Shown: piece by piece, positions 600 to 16,863 of the stretch | Position numbering within the stretch: the stretch's first letter is position 1 | Layout of the letters: the number at the start of each line of letters is the position of its first letter | NCBI RefSeq assembly: GCF_026625705.1 | Contig: NZ_CP113059.1 | Location: 930,001-994,000, forward strand | Length of the DNA stretch: 64,000 nt | DNA from: Pedobacter sp. SL55 | GTDB taxonomy: Bacteria; Bacteroidota; Bacteroidia; Sphingobacteriales; Sphingobacteriaceae | Direction: 5' to 3' | Made by a program: the position numbers and the translations under genes | The notes under the pieces: model-generated | What the model was told of the DNA's origin: nothing | What the model saw: only the letters and a program-made list of their open reading frames with translations | Database searches by the model: none

Positions 600-1358
600 A
601 TGAATACTACTGCGCAATTCTTAATTACCGTCTGTTTGCTTTTTTGCATTGTTAATTGTGGTTCGCAAAAAGTCGAAAGGTTTTTTCCGAAAATTGTCTA
701 CAAAACCAATGATTTAACAGTAACTCAAATTTCAGACAATGCTTTTGAACACACCTCCTACCTCCAAACCAACGATTTTGGAAAGGTTCCCTGCAATGGG
801 CTAATTGCTAAAGATGGCAATGAAACCATTATTTTCGATACACCCACTAACGATAAAGGCGCAGAGGAATTGATCAAGTGGATTACGGAAAAACTAAACT
901 GTAAAATCAATGCGGTTATACCAACTCATTTCCATGATGATTGCTTGGGTGGTTTAAAAGCTTTCCATGAAAATGGTATTCCATCTTACGCCTATTTTAA
1001 AACTATTGCTTTTGCTAAAGCGAAAAACTTTACGGTTCCTCAAAATAGCTTCAACAAATCGCTCAATCTTAAACTGGGCGCAAAGCATGTTACCGTAAAA
1101 TTCTTTGGAGAAGGCCATACTAGAGACAATGTAATAGGTTATTTTCCTAGCGAACAGTTAATGTTTGGCGGCTGCTTAATCAAAGAGATAGATGCCACAA
1201 AAGGCTTTCTCGGCGATGCCAATGTTTCTGCCTGGCCAACAACTGTAGAAAAAATAAGAAAGGAATATCCAAAAGTTCAAATCATTGTTCCGGGCCATGG
1301 CGAACGAGGCGATAAAAAATTGTTGGACTACACCATCCGCTTATTCGAGAAACAGTAA
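600..1358 (+). CDS. Subclass B1 metallo-beta-lactamase, predicted lipoprotein
   Basis: A 252-residue zinc hydrolase expected to open beta-lactam rings. The signal peptide ends in a lipobox (IVNC, Cys20), so the enzyme should be membrane-anchored outside the cytoplasm, as NDM-type enzymes are. The complete B1 zinc set is visible: HFHDD (His110, His112, Asp114), GEGH (His173), GGC (Cys192) and PGHG (His233). Lys195, three residues after the Cys, is the B1 substrate-binding Lys. Cysteine rather than serine or histidine at the second site separates it from subclass B3. It stands alone, without a mobile element or visible regulator, which suggests an intrinsic chromosomal gene. Activity and spectrum cannot be read from sequence. 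Confidence 0.88.
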   Translation: MNTTAQFLITVCLLFCIVNCGSQKVERFFPKIVYKTNDLTVTQISDNAFEHTSYLQTNDFGKVPCNGLIAKDGNETIIFDTPTNDKGAEELIKWITEKLNCKINAVIPTHFHDDCLGGLKAFHENGIPSYAYFKTIAFAKAKNFTVPQNSFNKSLNLKLGAKHVTVKFFGEGHTRDNVIGYFPSEQLMFGGCLIKEIDATKGFLGDANVSAWPTTVEKIRKEYPKVQIIVPGHGERGDKKLLDYTIRLFEKQ

Positions 1359-2983: not shown

Positions 2984-3535
2984 TTGAACGTCCAGATCAA
3001 GCTATCCGAACAAGAAATTGTCGCTTTGTTATTAAAGCAAGACGAAAAAGGTTTTAATTATTTGTACGATAATTATGCTGGAGCTATATATGGTATCATT
3101 ACCAAAGTAGTAAGCGAAAAGGAATATGCAGATGAAATTATACAAGATGTTTTTGTGAAAATTTGGAAAAACATTGTACAATTTGACCCTGAAAAAGGAC
3201 GTTTATATACGTGGATGATTAACTTAGCAAGAAATACAGCTATAGATTACGTACGTTCTAAAGGCTATCAAAACCAACAAAAAAACCAAACCATTCCAGA
3301 ATTCGTAAATGAAAGCGAGCAGTATGCTACAGCATTAAATGTTGACCATATTGGAATGAAAGATATATTAGCTCAATTAAAGTCTGATTGGCGAGAATTG
3401 ATTGAATTAGCCTACTTTAAGGGATATACGCAGCAAGAAATTGCCGAAAGGCTTGATATCCCTATTGGCACAATTAAAACTAGAACCAGAAATGCGTTAA
3501 TTGAGTTGAAAAGATTGTTAAAAGACTACCGATAA
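2984..3535 (+). CDS. ECF-type RNA polymerase sigma factor
   Basis: A 183-residue sigma-70 family factor of the extracytoplasmic-function group. Region 2 spans about 28-95, with ADEIIQDVFVKIWKN as the -10-recognising helix. Region 4 spans about 127-180, with the helix-turn-helix YTQQEIAERLDIPIGTIKTR. The start must be the TTG at 2984: an in-frame TAA lies at 2969-2971 and no ATG lies between. Its partner anti-sigma follows in the same frame three bases after the stop. The pair probably responds to an envelope signal. Candidate targets are itself and the divergent fasciclin gene, by inference from position only. Confidence 0.87.
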   Translation: MNVQIKLSEQEIVALLLKQDEKGFNYLYDNYAGAIYGIITKVVSEKEYADEIIQDVFVKIWKNIVQFDPEKGRLYTWMINLARNTAIDYVRSKGYQNQQKNQTIPEFVNESEQYATALNVDHIGMKDILAQLKSDWRELIELAYFKGYTQQEIAERLDIPIGTIKTRTRNALIELKRLLKDYR

Positions 3536-3538
3536 GAA

Positions 3539-4354
3539 TTGGATATTAAAGAATACATATCGTCAGGAATTATAGAGGCCTATGTAATGGGATTTGCTTC
3601 TGAGGAAGAAATCAGCATTTTGGATTGTGTTAGAAAAAACAATCCAGAAGTACAGCAGGCCATTATAGATGCGCAAGAAACCTTAGAGGATTTTGCCACT
3701 AGGGAGGCTATTGCCCCACCACCGGCATTAAAATCTGCGATATGGGCTAAAATTTCAGACGAAAATCGAGAACAGCCAATTACTGCAACACAACAACCAG
3801 AAACAATTGCCACACCTCTTTATCCAACACAAAGTATAGATAATAGCAAAGCAACCTTAAAATGGTTTGCCGCTGCGGCAAGTGTTCTATTGGTAGCTAG
3901 CATTTCTCTTAACTTTTACCTAAACCACAATAAAAATAGCATCAATGCTCAATTAGCAGCATTGTCTCAAAATCAAAAAACAACCGATTTAGCTTACCAA
4001 AACCTGAAAAGCAAATGGGATATGGCAAGTAACCCTGGCGTTAGAACAATTCCACTACTTGGTGTAGAAAAACACCCAGATATGAAAGCCATGGTATATT
4101 TTGAGCAAAATTCTAATGCTGTCTACCTTACTTTAGAGAATTTGCCAATGGCTCCTAAAGATCAACAATATCAATTATGGGCAATTGTAGAAGGTAAACC
4201 GGTAAGTTTGGGCGTATACGATCAAAACTCTGAAAAAGCAATGCAACAAATGATTGCCGTAAGTGCAGCGCAAGCTTTCGCAATTACATTAGAGAAACGT
4301 GGCGGAGTAGCCTCTCCTACTATGGAGAATATGTACGTGATGGGCAAAGTTTAG
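3539..4354 (+). CDS. Anti-sigma factor, RskA-like, single-pass membrane protein
   Basis: A 271-residue partner of the upstream sigma factor. The N-terminal cytoplasmic part (DIKEYISSGIIEAYVMG) is the zinc-finger-less anti-sigma start common in this phylum. One transmembrane helix lies at about 104-124. The outer C-terminal half matches the anti-sigma-K domain (QQYQLWAIVEGKPVSLG). The start is TTG at 3539, right after the sigma stop in the same frame; a later Met at residue 17 would cut into the conserved start. It presumably holds the sigma factor at the membrane until signalled. Confidence 0.82.
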   Translation: MDIKEYISSGIIEAYVMGFASEEEISILDCVRKNNPEVQQAIIDAQETLEDFATREAIAPPPALKSAIWAKISDENREQPITATQQPETIATPLYPTQSIDNSKATLKWFAAAASVLLVASISLNFYLNHNKNSINAQLAALSQNQKTTDLAYQNLKSKWDMASNPGVRTIPLLGVEKHPDMKAMVYFEQNSNAVYLTLENLPMAPKDQQYQLWAIVEGKPVSLGVYDQNSEKAMQQMIAVSAAQAFAITLEKRGGVASPTMENMYVMGKV

Positions 4355-4358
4355 CCTT

Positions 4359-5075
4359 TTATTTAGCGAAAGCCCATTCCAAAAATTTAGGAAAAGCCTT
4401 CCCCCATGTAGGCACATCATGCTTCCCTCCAACCATTTCGTAATAAAAAATATCCGACGGACGTTGATAGCCCTTTTTTAGCAGTTCTTTAACTACATCA
4501 ACTGTATCGTCAATAGAATCGATAATAAAGTTTTGGTTGCGGTCCGCTTTTTCATCGTCAGTACCAGTCATTAGCCAAAACTTGAGTGCTGGCTTTGCCG
4601 AACTTTCTTTCAGCATTTCATGTAGAATACGATCGTCATCAGTGTAACCATCGCTCAAATCTTTTTTACGCCACCAAAACGAGCCAGAAAAAACACCAAC
4701 CAAATCAAAAACAGTGCTATGGTGCCAAGCAATATCAAAGGCCGTTAAGCCACCTAGCGAGAAACCAGCAAAAGCCTTCTTACCGCTAATATTAACGTTC
4801 ACTTCCTTATCAATAAAAGGCAATAGCTCTTCAACAATAAAACTGGTATACAAATGCGCCTTGCTGCCCCTGTTCTTAAAGTCGGGCCGGTTAGCTATGC
4901 CATATTCTTGTAAACGTTCTTGGCCAGCACTAATTCCAACAGCTACTGTAGGTTCAATCTTCCACTTTTCGTATAACGATGAAAGCGATTGATCTAAACC
5001 CATTTGAGCCAAATCTTGCCCATCATTTACTAATAAGAGGTTTACTTTTTCGTTCCCCAATAAATTATCAGGCAC
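4359..5075 (-). CDS. Esterase D/Fes-type alpha/beta hydrolase, start uncertain
   Basis: A 238-residue serine hydrolase of the putative-esterase family. The nucleophile elbow is AGFSLGG and the catalytic His is in GGKHDVPTWGKAF near the C-terminus. The given start is a GTG at 5075, but the open frame continues upstream to a TGA at 5157-5159 and encodes family-like sequence (TTYQIKSKF, then RNVDIDIYVPDN). That upstream part has no ATG, GTG or TTG, so the true start is a rare codon such as ATT at 5148-5150, or was lost through an indel. It is divergent from a second hydrolase. Substrate unknown. Confidence 0.75.
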   Translation of the reverse strand: MPDNLLGNEKVNLLLVNDGQDLAQMGLDQSLSSLYEKWKIEPTVAVGISAGQERLQEYGIANRPDFKNRGSKAHLYTSFIVEELLPFIDKEVNVNISGKKAFAGFSLGGLTAFDIAWHHSTVFDLVGVFSGSFWWRKKDLSDGYTDDDRILHEMLKESSAKPALKFWLMTGTDDEKADRNQNFIIDSIDDTVDVVKELLKKGYQRPSDIFYYEMVGGKHDVPTWGKAFPKFLEWAFAK

Positions 5076-5316
5076 ATATATGTCTATATCAACATTACGT
5101 TGAAGAAATTTCGATTTTATTTGATAGGTAGTTTTGATAACAGATGCAATAAGGTTTCAGAAGAAAAAAACACTTCTCTCCAATTCTGTTGCAAAGTTAC
5201 CATTATCCTAAAAAACAGGCAACCCTCTATTGCATTTAAGCGGCAAAAAATATTTCTCAGATATTTTTGTTGTTGATAATGATTTACTTATCTTAAGTCG
5301 TCTAAACATTATACCC

Positions 5317-6021
5317 ATGATAGAAGAATTACACAAATGGCATAGTCCCAATTTAAATAAAGAGATAGAAACCCTCGTCTTCGGTCATAGTGGCCACCCA
5401 ATTATCCTATTTCCAACAAGTATGGGCCGTTACTATGAAAACAAGGATTTCAAATTAATCGATTCGGTACAAAATTTCATTAACGAAGGCAAAATTAGGA
5501 TTTATTGCCCCGATAGTATCGATTCTTTGAGCTGGTACAACAAGCATATCCATCCGGCAGAGCGGGTAAAAAACCACATTTGGTACGATAAATTTTTATT
5601 AGAAGAGCTGCTGCCTCTAGCAAAAAGCCAAACCGGCAAAGAAAAGGTAATTACTGCAGGCTGTAGCTTTGGCGGTTACCATGCGGCTAATTTCGCCTTT
5701 CGCCACCCTTGGGCAGTTAGCCACCTGTTTAGCCTAAGTGGCGCTTTTGATATTACTGGACAATTAGATGGATTTTACAACGATGAGGTGTACTTTAACA
5801 ACCCTGTAGACTACCTACCTAACAACATTAATCCCGAACTTTGGCAAATGAAAATAGTACTGGGCACAGCCGATAGAGATATCTGTAGACCCGACAACGA
5901 GCGCATGTCTGGCATTTTACACCAAAAAGGTATACAGCATTGGCTGGATATTAGACCAAATGCCGACCACGACTGGCCAGTATGGCGAGATATGTTCCCA
6001 GAATACATTTATCAATTATAA
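5317..6021 (+). CDS. Alpha/beta hydrolase of the amidoligase cluster
   Basis: A 234-residue putative esterase/peptidase, first gene of the cluster that continues to 10565. AGCSFGGYHA is the nucleophile elbow (Ser in GxSxG context) and DHDWPVW near the C-terminus supplies the catalytic His. I chose the ATG at 5317, since upstream codons back to a TTG at 5230 are spacer-like. There is no signal peptide, so it should be cytosolic. Its place before two ligases and an amidotransferase suggests that it trims or releases the cluster's product. That role is inference. Confidence 0.75.
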   Translation: MIEELHKWHSPNLNKEIETLVFGHSGHPIILFPTSMGRYYENKDFKLIDSVQNFINEGKIRIYCPDSIDSLSWYNKHIHPAERVKNHIWYDKFLLEELLPLAKSQTGKEKVITAGCSFGGYHAANFAFRHPWAVSHLFSLSGAFDITGQLDGFYNDEVYFNNPVDYLPNNINPELWQMKIVLGTADRDICRPDNERMSGILHQKGIQHWLDIRPNADHDWPVWRDMFPEYIYQL

Positions 6022-6121
6022 AGTGGTCAGGTATCAGTAAGCGTACTAAAACAATTAACCAAATACACAGTTAAACAGTTAACCCACATTTCAAATACTT
6101 AACAAAAAACATATAACCCCA

Positions 6122-7185
6122 ATGAAGAAAATAGGAATTTTATTTGGCCAAGAGCGTTCATTTCCGCAAGCGTTTATAGACAGAGTTAACCAAAAAGCAG
6201 TAAAAGGAATTACTGCAGAGTTTGTTAAAATCGACAAAGTTTTTCAGGCCGAAAAACCAGAATATGCTGTAATCATCGATCGTATTTCGCAAGATGTGCC
6301 TTTTTATCGTGCTTACTTAAAAAATGCCGCAATGGGTGGCACAGCGGTAATTAACAACCCTTTTTGGTGGAGCGCCGACGAGAAGTTTTTTAACAATGCA
6401 CTAGCAGAAAATATTGGCGTGCCTGTACCAAAAACAGCTCTAATTCCATCAAGAGAACACCCAGACGATACCAACGAAAACTCGTTTAGCAACTTGGTAA
6501 TGCCCTTTGATTGGGATGCGATATTTGAATACACTGGTTTCCCAGCTTATATGAAACCTTTTGATGGCGGTGGCTGGAAAGAGGTTTACAAACTATGTAG
6601 CAAAGAAGAGTTTTTTGAAAAGCACAGCGAAACCAAACAAACGGTAATGATGCTGCAAGAAGAAATTATTTTTGATGATACTTTAGATGTTATTGCATTG
6701 GCGGCAAGCACGTACGTATTATGCAATACGAGCCACGTAACCCACACCATTTACGCTATGTAGTTGATGGCCCAAAACCAAGTGAAGCACTTTTAAAAAC
6801 CATAGAAGAATATACTTTAAAACTGAACCAATATTTAGGCTACGATTTTAACACCGTAGAATTTGCAGTGCGTAATGGCGTACCTATTGCTATTGATTTT
6901 TGCAACCCAGCACCAGATGCAGGCGTAGAAAGCGTTGGCGCCGAAAACTTTGAGTGGGTGGTAGAAACCGCTGCAAATTATGCTATAGAAAAAGCACTGG
7001 CTCAAGAATTTGGTAAAGACAACCTTACTTGGGGCAGTTATGTAAAATCTGGCGCAACAGGCACTCCGCTTATTGCCAAGGCAACTAAAACAGTTGCAAA
7101 ACCTGCAGCAGCAGCAACAAAAGAAAAACCTGCGGCAAAGCCTAAAGCCACCACCAAAACTGCTGCTAAAAAATCAACCAAATAA
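6122..7185 (+). pseudogene. ATP-grasp ligase (RimK-like) split by a one-base deletion
   Basis: Two overlapping frames (6122-6763 and 6721-7185) encode one ATP-grasp enzyme that would join a carboxylate to an amine using ATP. After GATGAT ending at 6679, adding one T gives GAT TAC TTT AGA TGT and restores a continuous 354-residue protein reading YFRCYCIGGKHVRIMQYEP. MKPFDGGGWKEVY near residue 143 is the nucleotide-binding Lys and glycine-rich loop; VEFAV...AIDFCNP in the second half is the metal-binding region. The last 35 or so residues are rich in Lys, Ala and Pro, like a histone H1 tail. It lies 100 bases after the hydrolase and 19 before the carboxylate-amine ligase. It may be intact in the organism. 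Confidence 0.8.
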
Positions 7186-7204
7186 ATAGCCAAACAAACT
7201 ATCT

Positions 7205-8305
7205 ATGAACGAGTTTACCTTAGGAATTGAAGAAGAATACATGATTGTTGATCCTGTAACACGGGAATTGACTTCTCATGAACAAAAAATTGTAGAAGCG
7301 GCACAAAAAATCCACAAAGACCAAGTAAAAGCCGAAATGCACCAGGCCGTGGTAGAAGTGGGTACTGGAATTTGCAAAAATACCGACCAAGCTCGCCAAG
7401 AAATTACCCAACTGCGCAAAACCGTTGCAGAATTGGCCGGCGAGCAAGGTTTACGCATTGGTGCTGCTGGTACGCATCCGTTCTCGCACTGGGAAAAACA
7501 GTTAATTACCGAGCACCCTCGTTACAACGAAATTGTTAATGAGCTGCAGGAAGCTGCCAGATCTAATCTTATTTTTGGCTTGCACGTTCACGTAGGGTTT
7601 CAATCGCGAGAGCTGGCCATACACATTGCCAACCAAGTGCGTTATTTCTTGCCTCACGTTTTTGCACTTTCTACCAACTCTCCGTTTTGGGAAGGCCGAA
7701 ATACGGGCTACAAATCATTTCGCACTAAGGTTTTTGATAAATTCCCACGTACTGGTATTCCTGATATTTTCAATAGCATCGAAGATTATGATAACTATGT
7801 AAAACTTTTAATTAAGACCAATAGTATCGATAACGCAAAAAAAATATGGTGGGATATTCGTGTGCATCCTTTCTTCGAAACTATTGAATTTAGAGTGTGC
7901 GATTGCCCAATGCTAATTGATGAAACCATGGCTTTTACAGCATTATTTCAAGCGTTATGCGCTAAATTGTATAAGCTACGTTTACAGAATTTGAACTTCA
8001 TTTCTTACAGCAGAGCACTCATTAACGAGAACAAATGGAGAGCCGCCCGTTACGGAATTGATGGAAATTTGATTGATTTTGGCAAAGAAATGGAAGTAAA
8101 TTGTCGAAATTTGGTGCTCGAACTGTTAGATTTTATAGACGATGTAGTAGATGAGTTGGGCAGCAGAAACGAAATTAACTATGTACATCAAATTTTAGCC
8201 AATGGTACAGGTGCCGATAGACAGCTCGCTGTTTTTGAGCAGACCAAAAGCTACGAATCTGTGGTAGATTACATTACCACACAAACATTAATAGGTGCTA
8301 AATAA
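7205..8305 (+). CDS. Carboxylate-amine ligase (GCS2/YbdK family)
   Basis: A 366-residue member of the glutamate-cysteine ligase 2 family, with the glutamine-synthetase-like fold. The N-terminal GIEEEYMIVDP is the family signature with metal-binding glutamates; FGLHVHVGF and RVHPFFETIEFRVCD are further core motifs. These enzymes phosphorylate a carboxylate with ATP and condense it with an amine. The E. coli relative makes gamma-glutamylcysteine weakly, but the substrate here is unknown. It sits between the ATP-grasp gene and the glutamine amidotransferase (4 bases), in one probable transcript. Confidence 0.85.
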   Translation: MNEFTLGIEEEYMIVDPVTRELTSHEQKIVEAAQKIHKDQVKAEMHQAVVEVGTGICKNTDQARQEITQLRKTVAELAGEQGLRIGAAGTHPFSHWEKQLITEHPRYNEIVNELQEAARSNLIFGLHVHVGFQSRELAIHIANQVRYFLPHVFALSTNSPFWEGRNTGYKSFRTKVFDKFPRTGIPDIFNSIEDYDNYVKLLIKTNSIDNAKKIWWDIRVHPFFETIEFRVCDCPMLIDETMAFTALFQALCAKLYKLRLQNLNFISYSRALINENKWRAARYGIDGNLIDFGKEMEVNCRNLVLELLDFIDDVVDELGSRNEINYVHQILANGTGADRQLAVFEQTKSYESVVDYITTQTLIGAK

Positions 8306-8309
8306 AAAA

Positions 8310-9134
8310 ATGAACGATATTAATTTAAAGGTAGCCGTTATAGATATGAATAACGGGTTCCCTAACCAGGGGATGAGGGGTATACAAGAGATTTTACACC
8401 GATACAAAATTTATAATCAGCTTAACCTAAAGGTTGATATTTTTGACATTAGGCAGCGAGGAGAAGTACCAGATTTAAGCTACAATATTTACATTTCTAG
8501 CGGGGGGCCAGGCAATCCTTATGATGGAGAAGGGCAAAAATGGGAAGCCGATTTTTTTGATTTACTAGATAGAATTGATGATTTTAACCTAAGTAACAAC
8601 GAAAAGAAGCACGTTTTTCTAATTTGCCATTCCTTTCAATTGGCTTGCAGAAAATACGGTCTGGGCGAGGTTACGCAGCGTAAATCTAATGCTTTTGGTA
8701 TTTTCCCTATTTCCTTAACCGAAGCTGGAGAAAAGGAACGTGTTTTTGATGGACTTTACAACCCTTTTTACTCGGTAGATAGTAGAGATTGGCAGGTGGT
8801 ACAACCTAACCAAAAGGTTTTCGAAAAAATGGGTGCACAATTGTTGGCCATAGAAAAAGAACGCCCACATGTAGATTTAGAAAGATGCATGATGGCCATC
8901 CGCTTTTCGCCTTACAAGATTGGTACACAATTTCATCCAGAAGCAGATCCAATTGGTATGAAAATGTATTTATTACTAGAAGAGAAAAAAGAATTGATTA
9001 TCAAAAATCACGGTAAAGAAAAGTATGATGACATGATTGATAGCCTGGAAAATCCAGATCGGATTATGTTGACACAAAGTGTGATTTTACCAAATTTCTT
9101 GGACGAGGCGATAAATGCGCTTCAAGAAGTTTAG
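8310..9134 (+). CDS. Class I glutamine amidotransferase-like protein
   Basis: A 274-residue GMP-synthase-type amidotransferase domain standing alone. The triad is present: Cys106 in LICHSFQL, His209 and Glu211 in QFHPEAD. SSGGPGNPYDG at about 63-73 is the oxyanion-loop region. The usual GxCxG elbow is altered to ICHSF, so it may act as a glutamine-dependent ammonia donor or as a gamma-glutamyl hydrolase. I chose the ATG at 8310, four bases after the ligase stop; a GTG at 8295 would overlap it. Within an amidoligase cluster it could supply ammonia or cut a gamma-glutamyl bond. Confidence 0.82.
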   Translation: MNDINLKVAVIDMNNGFPNQGMRGIQEILHRYKIYNQLNLKVDIFDIRQRGEVPDLSYNIYISSGGPGNPYDGEGQKWEADFFDLLDRIDDFNLSNNEKKHVFLICHSFQLACRKYGLGEVTQRKSNAFGIFPISLTEAGEKERVFDGLYNPFYSVDSRDWQVVQPNQKVFEKMGAQLLAIEKERPHVDLERCMMAIRFSPYKIGTQFHPEADPIGMKMYLLLEEKKELIIKNHGKEKYDDMIDSLENPDRIMLTQSVILPNFLDEAINALQEV

Positions 9135-9168
9135 CTGTAAAAAATTAAAGAAAGATGATGTAGAAGCA

Positions 9169-9270
9169 GCCGTCATTTCGACCTGAGGGAGCATTGAAAA
9201 TCAACGAAGTTAAATCTAGTATCTGAGGATTATTATTAGATTTCTCCTCGTTACTCGTCGAAATGACGGC
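9169..9270. repeat. Palindromic dispersed repeat, GTCATTTCGA type
   Basis: A 14-base inverted repeat, GCCGTCATTTCGAC at 9169-9182 and GTCGAAATGACGGC at 9257-9270, encloses a core with AAATCTAG and TTAGATTTCTCCTCG. A related copy lies at 47150-47235. Bases 9271-9360 carry further repeat-like text (GATTGCTTCGTGCC, GCAATGACG). It separates the amidotransferase from the second ATP-grasp gene and may weaken read-through. Confidence 0.75.
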
Positions 9271-9380
9271 ATTTTCCTAAAGTAGCACTAAATAAACAGA
9301 TTCCTTCTAACGTTGGAATGACAAGCAGCTTTAAGATTGCTTCGTGCCTAGCAATGACGTAAACAACAACGGAACTTCCT

Positions 9381-10565
9381 ATGATCACAAACCACCGACA
9401 AGCTTTTAACGCTAATTTTAGCATAGCAAAATATCAAACCTTTTTAAAACAATTAGGAGCAGGCTACCCTGAAATCACTTTTCGTGTTGCCGAGTCTCCC
9501 ATATTTATCTCAGCAGATTTAAAGCAGAAATTAATAACGGCTGGCGAGGAGATTATTGCTTTAATTAAGCAAAGCAACTTTAAACAGCTTACTCAAAATG
9601 CCATCCCTAAAGAATGGTCGGTCCCAAATGAAAACGATCATCCGCATTTTTTGACATTTGATTTTGGCCTTTGCAAAGATGAAAACGGCGAAATTTCGCC
9701 CATGCTAATCGAAATGCAAGGCTTTCCATCATTATATGGTTTTCAAGCTCTTTTGGCAAACACCTACAAAAACGCGTACGGTTTAGCAGAAAATCTATCT
9801 CCTTATTTTAACGGTTTAACCGAAGAAAGTTATTTCAAATTACTTCAAAAAGTAATTGTAGGAAACCATGAACCACACGAAGTAGTGCTGATGGATGTTG
9901 ACGCAAAAAACCAAAAAACAGCGATTGATTTCTACGCCACCGCTAATAAAATTGGCATTAAAATTCTTGCACTAGAAGAAATTAATAAAGAAGGAAATAA
10001 GCTTTTTTACACTGAAGGCAATGAAAAAATTCAAATCAAAAGAATTTATAATCGCTTAATTTTTGATGAAATAGCCGATAACACCGAGTTATTTGAACAA
10101 AGCTTTGACCCAAGAGAGGAAGTAGACGTAGAATGGATTACACATCCCAATTGGTTTTATCGCATCAGCAAATATACCATGCCCTTTTTAAACGGCAAAT
10201 TTGTGCCCGAAACTAGGTTTTTAAATGAAATAGAGGCTATTCCGCCAGATTTAGAAAATTATGTACTAAAGCCACTTTTTTCTTTTGCTGGCATGGGTGT
10301 AATTATTGATGTAACCGAAAAAGATATCGTTGAAATTAAAGATCCCGAAAACTGGATTTTGCAACGCAAAGTAACCTACGAACCACTAATACAAGCTCCA
10401 GATGGCGGGGTAAAAGCCGAAATACGCTTAATGTACCTTTGGCCAGATGGCGGAGAACCTAAGCTTTGTATTAACTTAGCCCGTTTAAGTAGAGGCAAAA
10501 TGATTGGCGTACGCTACAATGCAGATTTTGATTGGGTTGGAGGTACAGTAGGATTGATGGAGTAG
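9381..10565 (+). CDS. ATP-grasp family protein, second ligase of the cluster
   Basis: A 394-residue protein I assign to the ATP-grasp fold from its C-terminal half: YVLKPLFSFAGMGVIID (nucleotide-binding Lys and glycine loop, about 296-312), NWILQRKVTYEPLI, and KAEIRLMYLWPDGGEPKLCI followed by RLSRGKMIGVR. The N-terminal half is unlike the first ATP-grasp gene, so they are not recent duplicates. It follows the amidotransferase by 246 bases that hold a palindromic repeat, so it may be transcribed with the cluster or separately. It probably condenses an amino acid or peptide in the same unknown pathway. Confidence 0.72.
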   Translation: MITNHRQAFNANFSIAKYQTFLKQLGAGYPEITFRVAESPIFISADLKQKLITAGEEIIALIKQSNFKQLTQNAIPKEWSVPNENDHPHFLTFDFGLCKDENGEISPMLIEMQGFPSLYGFQALLANTYKNAYGLAENLSPYFNGLTEESYFKLLQKVIVGNHEPHEVVLMDVDAKNQKTAIDFYATANKIGIKILALEEINKEGNKLFYTEGNEKIQIKRIYNRLIFDEIADNTELFEQSFDPREEVDVEWITHPNWFYRISKYTMPFLNGKFVPETRFLNEIEAIPPDLENYVLKPLFSFAGMGVIIDVTEKDIVEIKDPENWILQRKVTYEPLIQAPDGGVKAEIRLMYLWPDGGEPKLCINLARLSRGKMIGVRYNADFDWVGGTVGLME

Positions 10566-10748
10566 TTTCTATATTAATATTTGTGGTTTAGCAATTAATT
10601 GGAACTGGTTATCGAAGGATTTAATTATTAGTCTTCGACAAGCTCTGACTGACACAGGATGTTCAGATCAGCATTAACTTGAGCTTCTTTTACAATATGC
10701 CAACAATTAAACAATTCATCAATAAAGCAATTACCTATATTTGTAAGC

Positions 10749-10910
10749 ATGGATATTCAATTCATATTGATGATTGTTATTTTCGCTGCTGCATTAATTT
10801 ATGTGGGGCGCATCATCTATCGTAGTATATCTCCAAAAAATGAGGGTTGTGGTACAGGTTGCGGAAAATGTGCTGCCAATTTTGATCATATTTCTAAACC
10901 AAAAACTTAA
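10749..10910 (+). CDS. FeoB-associated Cys-rich membrane mini-protein
   Basis: A 53-residue protein: one N-terminal transmembrane helix (about residues 4-24), then a short tail with CGTGCGKC (Cys34, Cys38, Cys41). Small one-helix proteins with such a cysteine cluster accompany the ferrous iron transporter FeoB in many bacteria, but no feoB is in this window. It ends 6 bases before the Crp/Fnr gene, so the two are probably cotranscribed. The start ATG, the helix and the cysteine tail together make a real gene likely; exact function is unknown. Confidence 0.75.
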   Translation: MDIQFILMIVIFAAALIYVGRIIYRSISPKNEGCGTGCGKCAANFDHISKPKT

Positions 10911-10916
10911 TTACCA

Positions 10917-11504
10917 ATGCTCGATAAATTTGCTTCCTATCTTAAAAAAAGGCTTGCTATTACAGAAGAACAGGCTGCAGAAGCCGTTAGCTGTCTAACC
11001 ATCAAAACTTACAAAAAAGGGCAAATTTTATTAAGAGCAGGCGATTTAAAATCTGAAGCTTATTTTGTTAACAGTGGTTTACTGAGGTATTTTTCTATAG
11101 ATGAGAAAGGCAAAGAGCATATCATCCAATTTGCACCCGAAGACTGGATGTTGTCTGATAGAGACACCTCTGTTTTTAACGAACCCGCCTTTTTTTATAT
11201 CGATGCCATTGAAGATACCGAAGTGGTGGTAGTAAAAAAAGATTTTTTTCCGGCTATTAAAAATATTGTACCCGAAATTTTAGAACTTAATATTTTAATG
11301 CTGCATAATTCCATTAGGTTTATGCAAAAAAGGTTAAATATGTTATTATCCGCAACTGCGGAAGAACGTTATCTCGACTTTATCAAATTATACCCCAACC
11401 TAACTTTACGAGTACCCCAATGGATGATTGCATCCTATTTAGGCATTACCCCCGAATCATTAAGCAGAGTACGTAAAGACTTAGCTAAAAAACACTTTAA
11501 GTAA
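10917..11504 (+). CDS. Crp/Fnr family transcriptional regulator
   Basis: A 195-residue regulator with an N-terminal cyclic-nucleotide-binding-like beta-roll (about 20-115; KGQILLRAGD, then NSGLLRYFSID) and a C-terminal winged helix (about 145-193; RVPQWMIASYLGITPESLSRVRKDL). No cysteine set of the Fnr iron-sulfur type is present. The ligand is not predictable. It is tightly linked to the Cys-rich mini-protein upstream and followed by yceI and pirin genes, which suggests a redox or stress context. Confidence 0.82.
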   Translation: MLDKFASYLKKRLAITEEQAAEAVSCLTIKTYKKGQILLRAGDLKSEAYFVNSGLLRYFSIDEKGKEHIIQFAPEDWMLSDRDTSVFNEPAFFYIDAIEDTEVVVVKKDFFPAIKNIVPEILELNILMLHNSIRFMQKRLNMLLSATAEERYLDFIKLYPNLTLRVPQWMIASYLGITPESLSRVRKDLAKKHFK

Positions 11505-12251: not shown

Positions 12252-13123
12252 ATGCCTACAACAATAAAACAAGTTGCTGCTATCCTAAACCCTCCTGCTC
12301 CTCACATGGTAGGGGATGGGTTTAGGGTGCACAATTTCTTTCCAAGCGGATACAAAATTAAAATGGATCCGTTTTACTTACTCGATTACAATGCAAAAAT
12401 TGAGTTTTCGCCAACCAATAAACTCAGAGGGGTTGGCGTACATCCACATCGTGGCTTTGAGACGGTAACCATTGCTTATCATGGAGCAGTAGCCCATCAT
12501 GATAGCGCTGGCAATAGTGGTATAATTTATCCAGGCGATGTACAATGGATGACTGCCGGAAGTGGTATCTTACACAAAGAATATCATGAAGAAGCCTACA
12601 GCAAAAAAGGTGGCGCATTTCAAATGGTGCAATTATGGGTAAACTTACCTGCTAAATTTAAAATGATACTCCCAAGTATCAGGCATTAGCTAACGCTAGC
12701 ATTGCCAAATACGAATTGCCTAACGCCGGCGGAACGATAGAAGTAATTGCAGGAGAATACCAAGGCACTAAAGGCAGCGCAACCACCTTTACGCCAATTG
12801 AAATGTATAATGTGAGATTAAACGCTAACGCAAAAGCTTCTTTAAGCAGTCCAGCAAATTACAACACAGCATTAGTGGTAATAGAAGGTTCAATAACCGT
12901 AAATGGAACTGAGCAGGCAGTTACCAATCAAATGGTACATTTTGCGCATGAGGGTACAACTATTGAAATTGAAGCGAACGAAAACTCAGTAGTACTCTTT
13001 TTATCTGGAGAACCCATTAATGAGCCTATTGCCCAGTACGGACCATTCTTGATGAACAAGCCCGAAGAATTGCAACAAGCAATAGAAGATTACAATACCG
13101 GAAAATTTGGGTATTTAGAGTAG
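12252..13123 (+). pseudogene. Pirin family protein split by a one-base deletion
   Basis: Two frames (12252-12689 and from about 12668 to 13123) encode one pirin, a bicupin metal protein. The first ends in LPAKFKM and then a wrong-frame tail; inserting one base between 12665 and 12668 continues as [20 protein letters not shown] and gives a 290-residue protein. The N-terminal cupin has the iron-site motifs HPHRGFETVT and HKEYH. The C-terminal cupin ends in NTGKFGYL. As written, an ATG at 12716 could start only the second cupin. A sequence error is as likely as real inactivation. Confidence 0.82.
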
Positions 13124-13691: not shown

Positions 13692-14858
13692 TTATTTACT
13701 CACGTTATCGATAGTCCACGCCAAGGTAAATCTCAATGTATTTGCCAAAGGACTATTTTGAGCATTAGCTATCAGATAAGAAAAGTCAAGATTAAATACA
13801 TTGTATTTCAATCCACCACCTAATGTTAAATATCTTCTATCTCCTTTTTGAGGATTTTCATAGAAGTAACCAGCCCTTACGGCAAACTGTTGGTTGTAAG
13901 TATATTCTATACCTGTAGAAATTCCAATCTCTTTCAGTTCTTCTTTAAAACCTCCTGGAGCATCGGCAAAAGAGCCTAAAATACCCGAAGGCACCGACCG
14001 AAAAGGATCTTTACCCGCCACGATTTCGCCATTGATATCTCTAATCGGGTTTGTTGGCACCATAAGTTTATTAAAATCAAGTGCAAAGGTAAACTGATTA
14101 TAATCATCTATGATAAACGTAGATGCACCTCCTAATTTCATATTTGCTGGCAAAAACCTTTTATTTTGTGTTTCTGCATAACTCATTTTTGTGCCAATGT
14201 TAGACAAATTTAAACCTGCTGATAAAATCGCATCCTTTCCAAAAAGAACAGTTGGTTTCTTGAAAAAAGCAGAAACGTCAACAGCAACCGCAATACCAGC
14301 TTTTTGTTGGCTACCGCTTCCCAAACCAGGAGTTAAGTTGGAGCGTATAAAACGTGCCGAAGTTCCCAAAGAGAAATTTTCTCCGAATTTACGTGAGTAG
14401 GTCGCATCAAAAGCCAACTCATTTGGGTTAAAGGTACCTTCCGTAATTCCACCCTCATTTGTATATGCTATATCTCCCAAAGAAAAATATCTTAACGAAG
14501 CCCCAATTACTGTTCTGTTATCTAGTTGGTAAAAACCACTTAAATAAGCCAAATTAATATCGGGCACTAAATTTTTAAGCCAAGGGCTATAAGACAAACT
14601 TACGCCATAAGGTTTTTCTAAAAACGCCAACTTAGCAGGGTTAATGCTCATCGCATTGCCATCAGGCATTACTGCTACACCCGCTTCGCCCATGGCACCT
14701 GCCCTAGCATCTGGAGTAATTAACAAGAAAGGAACATCAGGGTATACACCGTTGGTTTGAGAAGTGCTACTTCCTGTAGTAGTTTGAGCAAGAGCAGTTT
14801 TTCCCGCAAATAAGAACAAAAGCAACAAAGCTCTTCTCAAATAGTTTAATTTCATCAT
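13692..14858 (-). CDS. porV: Type IX secretion outer-membrane protein PorV (LptO)
   Basis: A 388-residue outer-membrane beta-barrel of the FadL-like PorV family. It carries T9SS cargo from the translocon to the PorU sortase. A signal peptide covers about 1-24. The mature start has the family hallmark PFLLITPDARAGAMGEAGVA, followed by alternating strands ending in LRFTLAWTI. It is divergent from gldJ across 440 bases, the kind of linkage seen in gliding Bacteroidota, though no porU is adjacent. It should serve the T9SS-tagged pectinases at 54.9-61.4 kb. Confidence 0.9.
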   Translation of the reverse strand: MMKLNYLRRALLLLFLFAGKTALAQTTTGSSTSQTNGVYPDVPFLLITPDARAGAMGEAGVAVMPDGNAMSINPAKLAFLEKPYGVSLSYSPWLKNLVPDINLAYLSGFYQLDNRTVIGASLRYFSLGDIAYTNEGGITEGTFNPNELAFDATYSRKFGENFSLGTSARFIRSNLTPGLGSGSQQKAGIAVAVDVSAFFKKPTVLFGKDAILSAGLNLSNIGTKMSYAETQNKRFLPANMKLGGASTFIIDDYNQFTFALDFNKLMVPTNPIRDINGEIVAGKDPFRSVPSGILGSFADAPGGFKEELKEIGISTGIEYTYNQQFAVRAGYFYENPQKGDRRYLTLGGGLKYNVFNLDFSYLIANAQNSPLANTLRFTLAWTIDNVSK

Positions 14859-15297
14859 AAAACAGTTAATCTGCGCAATTTAGTATAGAGTTTGTTAATA
14901 TCAAAGCGAGTGGTAAGCTAATTTTATATCTTTCTGCTTAACGACAATAAAGGTGCAATATTGCCCTCCAACAATCAATAGTTAATTTGTTGCATCATAA
15001 AAGGGATAATTCTACAGTCAATTTTATTAAAAACTTTAAATATCACAACCATTTATAACCAAAAGACTTAAAATTTTCGCAACATAGGGAAAATATTCCC
15101 CGTTTGTTTTTTCCAAAAAGATATCAACAATATAATCAGAAGTCTTTCGTTTAGTAGCTTAAAAAGAGAAAGTTCCATATTAATGTTACTTAATTTTAAA
15201 ATTAAATTTTGGCAGTAAAAGCTACCAAATAAAAAAGTTTTTTACTTCTCATTCTTTTTTTGTGTATTTTTAACAACTAAAGTGCAATTTGCAATAT
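14859..15297. promoter_or_regulatory. Divergent intergenic region between porV and gldJ
   Basis: A 439-base, very AT-rich spacer that must hold promoters for both T9SS genes. I find no pair of TTTG and TAnnTTTG boxes with correct spacing. For porV, TTTG followed 19 bases later by TAAATTGC is the nearest match. A small GGGAAAATATTCCC hairpin lies near 15087. No gene is seen. Confidence 0.5.
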
Positions 15298-16863
15298 ATG
15301 AATAAAATTTACTTATACGCGGTAGTATCATTATTTGGTGTTGGGGCATTAAGTTCTTGTGGTCCTAAGGGCGGAGCTGTATCTGAAAAAACTGGCTATG
15401 CCTACAATAAACGAGAAAATGGCGGCTTTGAAGTAAAAAAAGGCTATAAAAGAGGACCTGGACCTGGCTTAATTGAAATAGAAGGCGGTGAGTTTATTAT
15501 GGGCGGTAGTGCCGTTGAAATACCAGGCCAAGACATGAGCGCTTACAATTATAAAAGACAAGTTACGGTAAGCTCTTTTTATATGGATGAGACAGAGGTT
15601 TCTAATACAGATTGGCTAGAATACTTGCACTGGATTAGAACTACCTTTAGAGGAAAACCAGAACTTGCAGAGTATTACTACACAGCCTTACCAGATACCC
15701 TGGTTTGGAGAAGACCGCTTTCTTATAACGAACCTTATGTTAACAACTACTTAAGACACCCAGCTTATGGAGATTATCCAGTAGTAGGTGTAAGCTGGCA
15801 ACAAGCTACTGATTACTGTGTTTGGCGTACAGATAGGGTAAACGAATTTATTTTAAGGCAAAAAGGGATCATGACCCCATTTAAAGACCTTAATAAACCT
15901 ACAGCTAAAGGTGGTGCTCCGGTTAAAAAATCAGATACCGTATTTAACACCGATGTTTATTTAAACGGACAAATTAAAGACCTTGGTAAAAGAGCACCAC
16001 AAGATCTAAGTGCCGAAGCTGGCGGGACGGGTAAAAATAAAGTACAACGAAATGTAAGGCTTGAGGACGGGGAAATCCTTCAACCTTACCGCTTACCAAC
16101 AGAAGCTGAGTGGGAATATGCCGCTTTGGGCCTAATTGGAAATACACAGTATGCCAATATTAATGAGAAAAAAGTTTATCCTTGGAATGGTTTAGGCATT
16201 ACTTCTCCAAAAAAATCTACCAGAGGGATGATTTTGGCCAACTTTAAACGTGGCAAAGGAGATTACATGGGCGTAGGTGGCTCGCTAAATGATAAGGGAA
16301 GTATCACGCAATCTGTTCGTAGCTTTACACCTAATGATTTTGGTTTGTATAACATGGCAGGCAATGTAAACGAGTGGGTAAATGATGTTTATCGCCCTAA
16401 CACGTTCGAAGCTACCGAAGGTTTAAACCCATTTAGAGGTAACGAATACGCCGACAAGGTTAGAGACCCAAAAAGCAGTGTAATTAAAGTTGATGGCAAA
16501 GGCCGCCCAGTGATGAAATCTGCAGGTACCGGAGTTAAACAAACTTGGGCACAGTTACAATCTAACTATACAGATTCTACTTACAAAGCAGATCAACGTG
16601 GTTATAAAGATGAGCAAAAGAATCTGCCAGATGGCGAAGTAATTACGCTTTACAACGATAAATCACGTGTATACAAAGGCGGTTCTTGGAACGATCAAGC
16701 CATGTGGCTAAATCCAGCTTCTAGAAGATTTTTACAAGAAGACGAATCTACTGCTGATATCGGTTTCCGTTCGGCAATGACAATGCTTGGTGCATCAGAA
16801 GTGAGATCTGCAGGAAAACCTCAGTTTAAAACTAAAGCTAGTAAACCATTTAAGGTAAAATAA
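15298..16863 (+). CDS. gldJ: Gliding motility/T9SS lipoprotein GldJ-like (FGE-sulfatase domain)
   Basis: A 521-residue lipoprotein with a lipobox (LSSC) and a formylglycine-generating-enzyme-like domain across most of its length: IEIEGGEFIMGG, FYMDETEVSNTDW, YRLPTEAEWEYAA, LYNMAGNVNEWV and KGGSWN. In this phylum such lipoproteins are GldJ and GldK of the gliding/T9SS machinery. Adjacency to porV favours GldJ; without alignment GldK is not fully excluded, but gldL, gldM and gldN are absent here. The start is the ATG at 15298. A strong terminator follows. Confidence 0.8.
   Translation: MNKIYLYAVVSLFGVGALSSCGPKGGAVSEKTGYAYNKRENGGFEVKKGYKRGPGPGLIEIEGGEFIMGGSAVEIPGQDMSAYNYKRQVTVSSFYMDETEVSNTDWLEYLHWIRTTFRGKPELAEYYYTALPDTLVWRRPLSYNEPYVNNYLRHPAYGDYPVVGVSWQQATDYCVWRTDRVNEFILRQKGIMTPFKDLNKPTAKGGAPVKKSDTVFNTDVYLNGQIKDLGKRAPQDLSAEAGGTGKNKVQRNVRLEDGEILQPYRLPTEAEWEYAALGLIGNTQYANINEKKVYPWNGLGITSPKKSTRGMILANFKRGKGDYMGVGGSLNDKGSITQSVRSFTPNDFGLYNMAGNVNEWVNDVYRPNTFEATEGLNPFRGNEYADKVRDPKSSVIKVDGKGRPVMKSAGTGVKQTWAQLQSNYTDSTYKADQRGYKDEQKNLPDGEVITLYNDKSRVYKGGSWNDQAMWLNPASRRFLQEDESTADIGFRSAMTMLGASEVRSAGKPQFKTKASKPFKVK

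Follow-up and report, generated by a model that had tools for sequence, protein, structure and literature searches.

A set of six genes in Pedobacter sp. SL55 is a real, conserved linkage group and is functionally coherent. It lies in a window of 64,000 nt (NZ_CP113059.1, positions 930,001-994,000; positions below are those of the window), where five genes form a forward unit at 5317-10565, all on the plus strand: a serine hydrolase (est), an ATP-grasp ligase (AG1), a carboxylate-amine ligase (GCS2), a protein with the class-I glutamine amidotransferase (GATase) fold (GAT) and a second ATP-grasp protein (AG2), in that order. The sixth gene, est0, encodes another esterase; it is on the minus strand and shares an intergenic region with the forward unit (Table 1). 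Gene content and order are conserved, and the genes are co-inherited. What might such a set make? The reading we favour, tentatively, sees here the core of a Bacteroidota pathway, where successive ATP-dependent ligations build a short peptide-like amide conjugate that is subsequently trimmed. The most likely product class is a short gamma-glutamyl-type peptide or amine conjugate. An earlier note on this DNA had proposed a pathway to a peptide-like metabolite with several ATP-dependent condensations, serine hydrolases and a Cys enzyme tied to glutamine or gamma-glutamyl chemistry, and these points are supported, though its interpretation as a whole is supported only in part. The five genes it listed are present in the order and strand claimed, but AG1 is not a single open frame in the SL55 assembly, and est0 had been omitted.

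Conservation of the neighbourhood was followed in loci centred on AG1, the best 80 of at least 583 confirmed stretches from GTDB species, many of which end at contig ends. AG1 is present in 79 of these, est0 in 75, GCS2 in 72, GAT in 44, AG2 in 42 and est in 34, and all six genes occur together in 28. The commonest order is est0 est AG1 GCS2 GAT AG2 (28 loci, with CRP next in 19); est0 AG1 GCS2, found in 26 loci, is the other common arrangement. Besides the six genes, recurrent open reading frames (ORFs) of at least 80 aa are nearly restricted to one half of these loci, and families recurring in at least eight loci to one part of the list. The earlier note had let its proposal depend on a neighbourhood kept in related genomes; gene order and phyletic co-occurrence are both conserved, and gene content and order that recur across the phylum point to more than chance.

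Variant arrangements were seen in 20 GAT regions, taken from the 29 genomes that carry GAT. Six have est-AG1-GCS2-GAT-AG2, two have AG1-GAT-AG2 without GCS2, one has GAT-AG2 only and six have GAT alone. In one more (L036) the order is AG1-GCS2-GAT-AG2, interrupted after GCS2 by an amidohydrolase gene (8637-10466 of that locus; PF07969, 294 bits); by eye, a similar-looking protein precedes the lone GAT of L039. In the remaining four (L034, L040, L042 and L048), AG1 and GAT flank a circularly permuted ATP-grasp some 460 aa long. Homology of AG2 to this permuted protein was considered but is not supported, hhalign giving a probability of only 1 with two sequences on one side, so the two are treated as positional equivalents only. 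In locus L033, a 330-aa protein without a Pfam match (10415-11407) is immediately downstream of GAT-AG2. An aromatic amino-acid ammonia-lyase gene (PF00221) is found 3' of AG1 on the same strand in family f22 (L068, L070 and L074), with a 1-base overlap in L068; it was rejected as a core member, since it is found in three genomes of that one family.

Co-occurrence was scored in 118 genomes of the phylum, the window's own among them. AG1 is present in 44, est in 46, GCS2 in 37, AG2 in 35, GAT in 29 and AG4, a third ATP-grasp discussed below, in 23; in two of the 44 genomes, G007 and G087, the AG1 match is a weak one (35-37% identity). Every genome with AG2, GAT or AG4 falls within the AG1-positive set. 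Pairing the genes with AG1 gives Fisher p values from 1.1e-12 to 7.8e-25, which ignore ancestry. Co-variation within families is the better argument. In family f14, six genomes with AG1 stand against six without it, and there is no mixture between them for AG1, GCS2, AG2, GAT and AG4; est makes a single exception (G062). The same all-or-none pattern is seen in f1, f4 and f10 for the genes held there and in f2 except for G007, with its weak AG1 alone. Elsewhere, f13 has a weak AG1 in G087 only and f17 has est alone in G014. Of the six f14 regions with AG1, five show est-AG1-GCS2-AG2, one of them (L055) with a small ORF between est and AG1, and the sixth (L058) has AG1-GCS2 near a contig end; GAT and AG4 are located away from the ligase operon in this family. 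AG4 (ATP-grasp_4, PF13535-like) occurs in AG1-positive genomes only, 23 of 23, and adjoins the cluster at L040:10136-11314, L049:3396-4607 and L050:10345-11553. It has no match in the SL55 genome at E<=1e-20.

Do the enzymes themselves fit a ligation pathway? Subtypes were assigned from profile matches (Pfam, NF and TIGR models) and predicted folds. GCS2 exceeds the cut-offs of PF04107 (212 bits, cut-off 21) and NF010039 (545.6 bits, cut-off 371), matches the profile of PDB 1r8g at 1.1e-65 and carries the motif GIEEE, which fits GhExE as defined in the part of PMC2588565 available; G7, E9, E10 and E11 are invariant in 17 of 17 proteins. By domain and motif it is thus a predicted YbdK/GCS2 carboxylate-amine ligase. 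A match to TIGR00768 at E<=0.001 is seen for each of the 27 AG1 proteins (best 2.5e-10), but an intact relative (P0128), at 35.4 bits, and the N-terminal piece in the window, at 24.8, fall short of the curated cut-off of 143.4 bits. AG1 is accordingly placed, by sequence, as an ATP-grasp related to RimK/LysX. Its C terminus has a Lys/Ala-rich, histone-tail-like extension whose length varies across relatives. AG2 is predicted to fold over its whole length like YgiC, glutathionylspermidine synthetase and glutathione synthetase, but the window protein has no PF03738 match up to E 1, and three of 20 relatives do (best 5.2e-5). It would therefore be a glutathionylspermidine synthetase/YgiC-type ATP-grasp by predicted fold and not by profile. 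YgiC and YjfC are termed peptidylpolyamine synthetases in the portion of PMC12568646 available. The two ATP-grasps are of different subtypes. Both esterases exceed the PF00756 cut-off, and est matches a relative at 77%.

AG1 is split over two frames in the SL55 assembly, 6122-6763 and 6721-7185, with the seam placed at 6679-6700 by tblastn with an intact relative; the frame is open in relatives, and Pedobacter xixiisoli (L077), for one, has the cluster intact. No second copy was found in the genome at E<=1e-20 in a search with the N-terminal piece. The ATP-grasp family named in the earlier note is present, though not as one open frame. A presumably pirin-like gene (12252-13123, plus strand) is also split, with a seam at about 12668-12674, and is open in the syntenic locus L031, where 12 of 16 called ORFs match the window and AG1 and this gene are the only two-frame matches. 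Two split genes suggest assembly indels, and an assembly error may lie behind each; AG1 may instead carry a real mutation. The broken AG1 frame may mean that SL55 lacks the pathway, or it may be no more than an error of sequencing.

The GAT protein exceeds the PF00117 cut-off (35.2 bits, cut-off 22.8) and gives a structure model with a pLDDT of 92.6. The Cys-His-Glu triad reported earlier is confirmed as Cys104-His207-Glu209 (numbering of ORF 8316-9131), invariant in 20 of 20 aligned proteins. The canonical class-I amidotransferase nucleophile motif is CxGxQ, and here it is CHSFQ, with Ser for Gly; S106 is invariant in the 20 proteins and Q108 is kept in 19. Glutaminases, homoserine acyltransferases and gamma-glutamyl peptidase match the predicted fold at similar scores, so that a role as gamma-glutamyl peptidase or hydrolase is compatible with the modelled fold; identity to Arabidopsis gamma-glutamyl peptidase 1 (PDB 9k7i-9k7l) is 17-18%.

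A route can be sketched with these parts. GCS2 would link an amine to glutamate through its gamma-carboxylate, giving gamma-Glu-X; AG1, being RimK/LysX-like, would add an amino acid to a carboxylate; and AG2, like glutathionylspermidine synthetase and YgiC, would put a further amino acid or a polyamine-type amine onto a C-terminal carboxylate. GAT, through its triad, may trim the product, or an intermediate on the way to it, by removing an N-terminal acyl group such as gamma-glutamyl, and est and est0 might hydrolyse an ester, thioester or amide of the route. The order of the steps and the substrates are what we infer, as is a GAT that hydrolyses rather than donates ammonia.

Is hydrolysis the better choice for GAT? 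In two genomes without a GAT match, G093 and G055, an M29 peptidase gene is found between GCS2 and AG2 (L064 and L069); the two proteins are 62% identical, and other M29 relatives in the sample reach at most 31%. A peptidase in the GAT slot favours hydrolysis. M24 peptidases are near the detached GAT in all five f14 GAT regions examined, an M17 peptidase adjoins the cluster in L049, and the amidohydrolase of L036 adjoins GAT. A GCS2-like ligase adjoining a GATase-like thiol peptidase was noted in another family in the part of PMC2588565 available: as here, a glutamine synthetase (GS)-fold ligase of GCS2 size adjoins a GATase-fold peptidase candidate, but that pair has a different ligase family, occurs in proteobacteria and firmicutes, and is described there with no mention of ATP-grasps or esterases.

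The chief alternative, unlikely though to be taken seriously, is that GAT is a true class-I amidotransferase giving ammonia to AG2 or the permuted ATP-grasp, with a carboxamide as product; CarA-CarB or the osmolyte N-acetylglutaminylglutamine amide (NAGGN) would offer the analogy. Several observations favour such a donor. The GAT active site is glutaminase-like, and among its fold matches gamma-glutamyl peptidase comes slightly behind glutaminase-type proteins and homoserine acyltransferases. GAT is immediately ahead of AG2 in all 42 AG2-bearing loci of the 80, with no intervening ORF in 39. Two counts speak against a strict gamma-Glu pairing: GAT is found without GCS2 in six of 29 genomes, and GCS2 without GAT in 13 of the 35 genomes with AG2. 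A strict protection scheme, where GCS2 adds gamma-Glu and GAT removes it, is lowered by the first of these. Ammonia donation is in turn opposed by the absence of a GAT match in those 13 AG2-bearing genomes, two of which have the metallopeptidase in its slot; by seven of the 22 genomes with both, where GAT and AG2 are wide apart or on different contigs; and by the fold relatives of AG2, which take amines or amino acids, not ammonia. On balance the hydrolytic reading of GAT is ahead of ammonia donation, though not far ahead.

Could the cluster instead make a low-molecular-weight thiol or thiol-polyamine cofactor, akin to glutathione or glutathionylspermidine? GCS2 would form gamma-Glu-Cys, AG2 would extend it, and the PF00756 enzymes would be S-acyl thioesterases of the S-formylglutathione hydrolase kind. 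The kinship of GCS2 to YbdK and the glutathione/glutathionylspermidine-synthetase fold of AG2 are consistent with this, as is a weak S-formylglutathione hydrolase match of est0 (E 0.0042). What speaks against it is BshC, which catalyses the final bacillithiol step and is present in 117 of the 118 genomes, SL55 included, whether or not they carry the cluster (the search did not extend to BshA and BshB); a thiol route is probably already present, and the cluster is probably not the main one. Bacillithiol-type synthesis is thus probably general in the sample and the cluster an addition, its presence not being tied to the loss of another thiol route as far as BshC tells. Replacement of glutathione or another thiol was lowered on this ground, though the sole genome without a BshC match, G109, carries the cluster, a point for the thiol cofactor and against the conjugate we prefer. 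We consider such a cofactor improbable.

Still less probable is modification of a protein rather than a free metabolite, by RimK-like glutamylation or peptide tagging. RimK adds amino acids to a protein C terminus and LysX to the carrier LysW; these are the nearest named families of AG1, and its Lys/Ala-rich tail occurs in several lineages. However, among ORFs of at least 80 aa, smaller ones not being surveyed, no carrier gene is shared by the two halves of the 80 loci and no LysW-like partner was seen, and no tagging system is known to use as many as three to four ligases of different fold. That the genes are merely neighbours from separate pathways, brought together by chance or shared ancestry, is very improbable: some lineages have them at separate loci, GCS2 and GAT are each missing from some genomes and there are the lone est and AG1 genes listed above, but AG1, GCS2 and AG2 are all-or-none in f1, f4, f10 and f14, and in f2 bar G007, and the co-variation in f14 holds though GAT and AG4 are unlinked to AG1.

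How does the preferred conjugate pathway compare with known systems? In Gss (glutathionylspermidine synthetase/amidase), a synthetase is paired with an amidase. The identity of AG2 to E. coli YgiC/YjfC, to Gss and to trypanothione synthetase is 10-14%, it is without the PF03738 match, and the Cys enzyme here is a separate class-I GATase-fold protein accompanied by the extra ligases GCS2 and AG1. The glutathione route with a GCS2-type gshA and a eukaryotic-type glutathione synthetase shares the GCS2 family and the AG2 fold, but differs from the cluster with its two ATP-grasps, two esterases and GATase-fold enzyme, and in the near-universal BshC background. The earlier statement that no thiol, cyanophycin or glutathione route fits the full set holds in that none was found, with the caveat of the glutathione-type fold of AG2 and the YbdK homology of GCS2; glutathione-like chemistry would be the closest analogy. 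No paper on this gene set was found in openly licensed PMC text (CC0, CC BY or CC BY-SA), a search that does not cover the amidoligase survey of Iyer et al. (2009), the likeliest place for such neighbourhoods; they may have been listed before. The set is not mentioned in the part of PMC4431377 available.

Table 1. Features of the cluster in the window
Feature	Position	Strand	Description
est0	4359 to ~5153	-	PF00756 serine esterase/hydrolase; 96 bits, cut-off 22
TAACTTTG	5192-5199	-	fits TAnnTTTG, upstream of est0
est	5317-6021	+	PF00756 serine hydrolase, first of forward unit; 27.3 bits, cut-off 22
AG1	6122-7185	+	RimK/LysX-like ATP-grasp ligase, Lys/Ala-rich C-terminal tail; frame broken at 6679-6700
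GCS2	7205-8305	+	predicted YbdK-type carboxylate-amine (gamma-glutamyl) ligase; PF04107, NF010039, PDB 1r8g matches
GAT	~8310-9134	+	class-I glutamine-amidotransferase-fold Cys-His-Glu enzyme; alternative GTG start at 8295
AG2	9381-10565	+	ATP-grasp, predicted glutathionylspermidine-synthetase / YgiC / eukaryotic glutathione-synthetase fold

The 5' end of est0 follows homology from an intact relative, which runs up to 5153; the first listed start is a GTG at 5075. The sequence TAACTTTG is presumably a Bacteroidota -7 promoter box, taking TAnnTTTG as the consensus. When 21 est0-est intergenic regions are aligned, TAnnTTTGC is kept at >=85%, a single short conserved block in what is elsewhere mostly gaps; the box alone is not rarer than chance, with four matches in the window and 5.3 expected. 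The GAT-AG2 spacer is 246 bp (9135-9380), and of 52 pairs elsewhere, 18 have a gap of at most 30 bp and seven a negative one. By eye the spacer resembles an interspersed repeat, and it is reduced or missing in many relatives. Among neighbouring genes, those for an ECF sigma factor and, after it, an anti-sigma-like protein (95.6 bits against a cut-off of 100), at 2984-4354 (plus), are convergent with est0. A subclass B1 metallo-beta-lactamase gene is at 600-1358 (plus; NF033088, 274 bits, cut-off 200), with the CHM, BMHC and CIM families nearest, below their own cut-offs. Type IX secretion PorV (13692-14858, minus; 478 bits, cut-off 250) and a GldJ/GldK-like lipoprotein (15289-16863, plus; below the cut-offs of the GldJ and GldK models) are also near the cluster.

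A bolder extension, possible but doubtful, is that this is a widespread undescribed pathway to a new intracellular peptidyl-amine conjugate, glutathionylspermidine-like and not the main thiol. Up to four unrelated amide ligases would take part (GCS2, AG1, AG2 and, in half of the carriers, AG4), and a GATase-fold protein would have turned into a product-trimming Cys hydrolase replaceable by a metallopeptidase. Both ATP-grasps of the window, AG1 and AG2, are outside curated families, and the set narrows the chemical expectation to a gamma-glutamyl peptide or peptide-amine. Between a quarter and a third of the 118 sampled genomes carry GAT (29) and AG2 (35), and the set tends to stay or go as a whole, which is the behaviour of core cofactors and stress metabolites.

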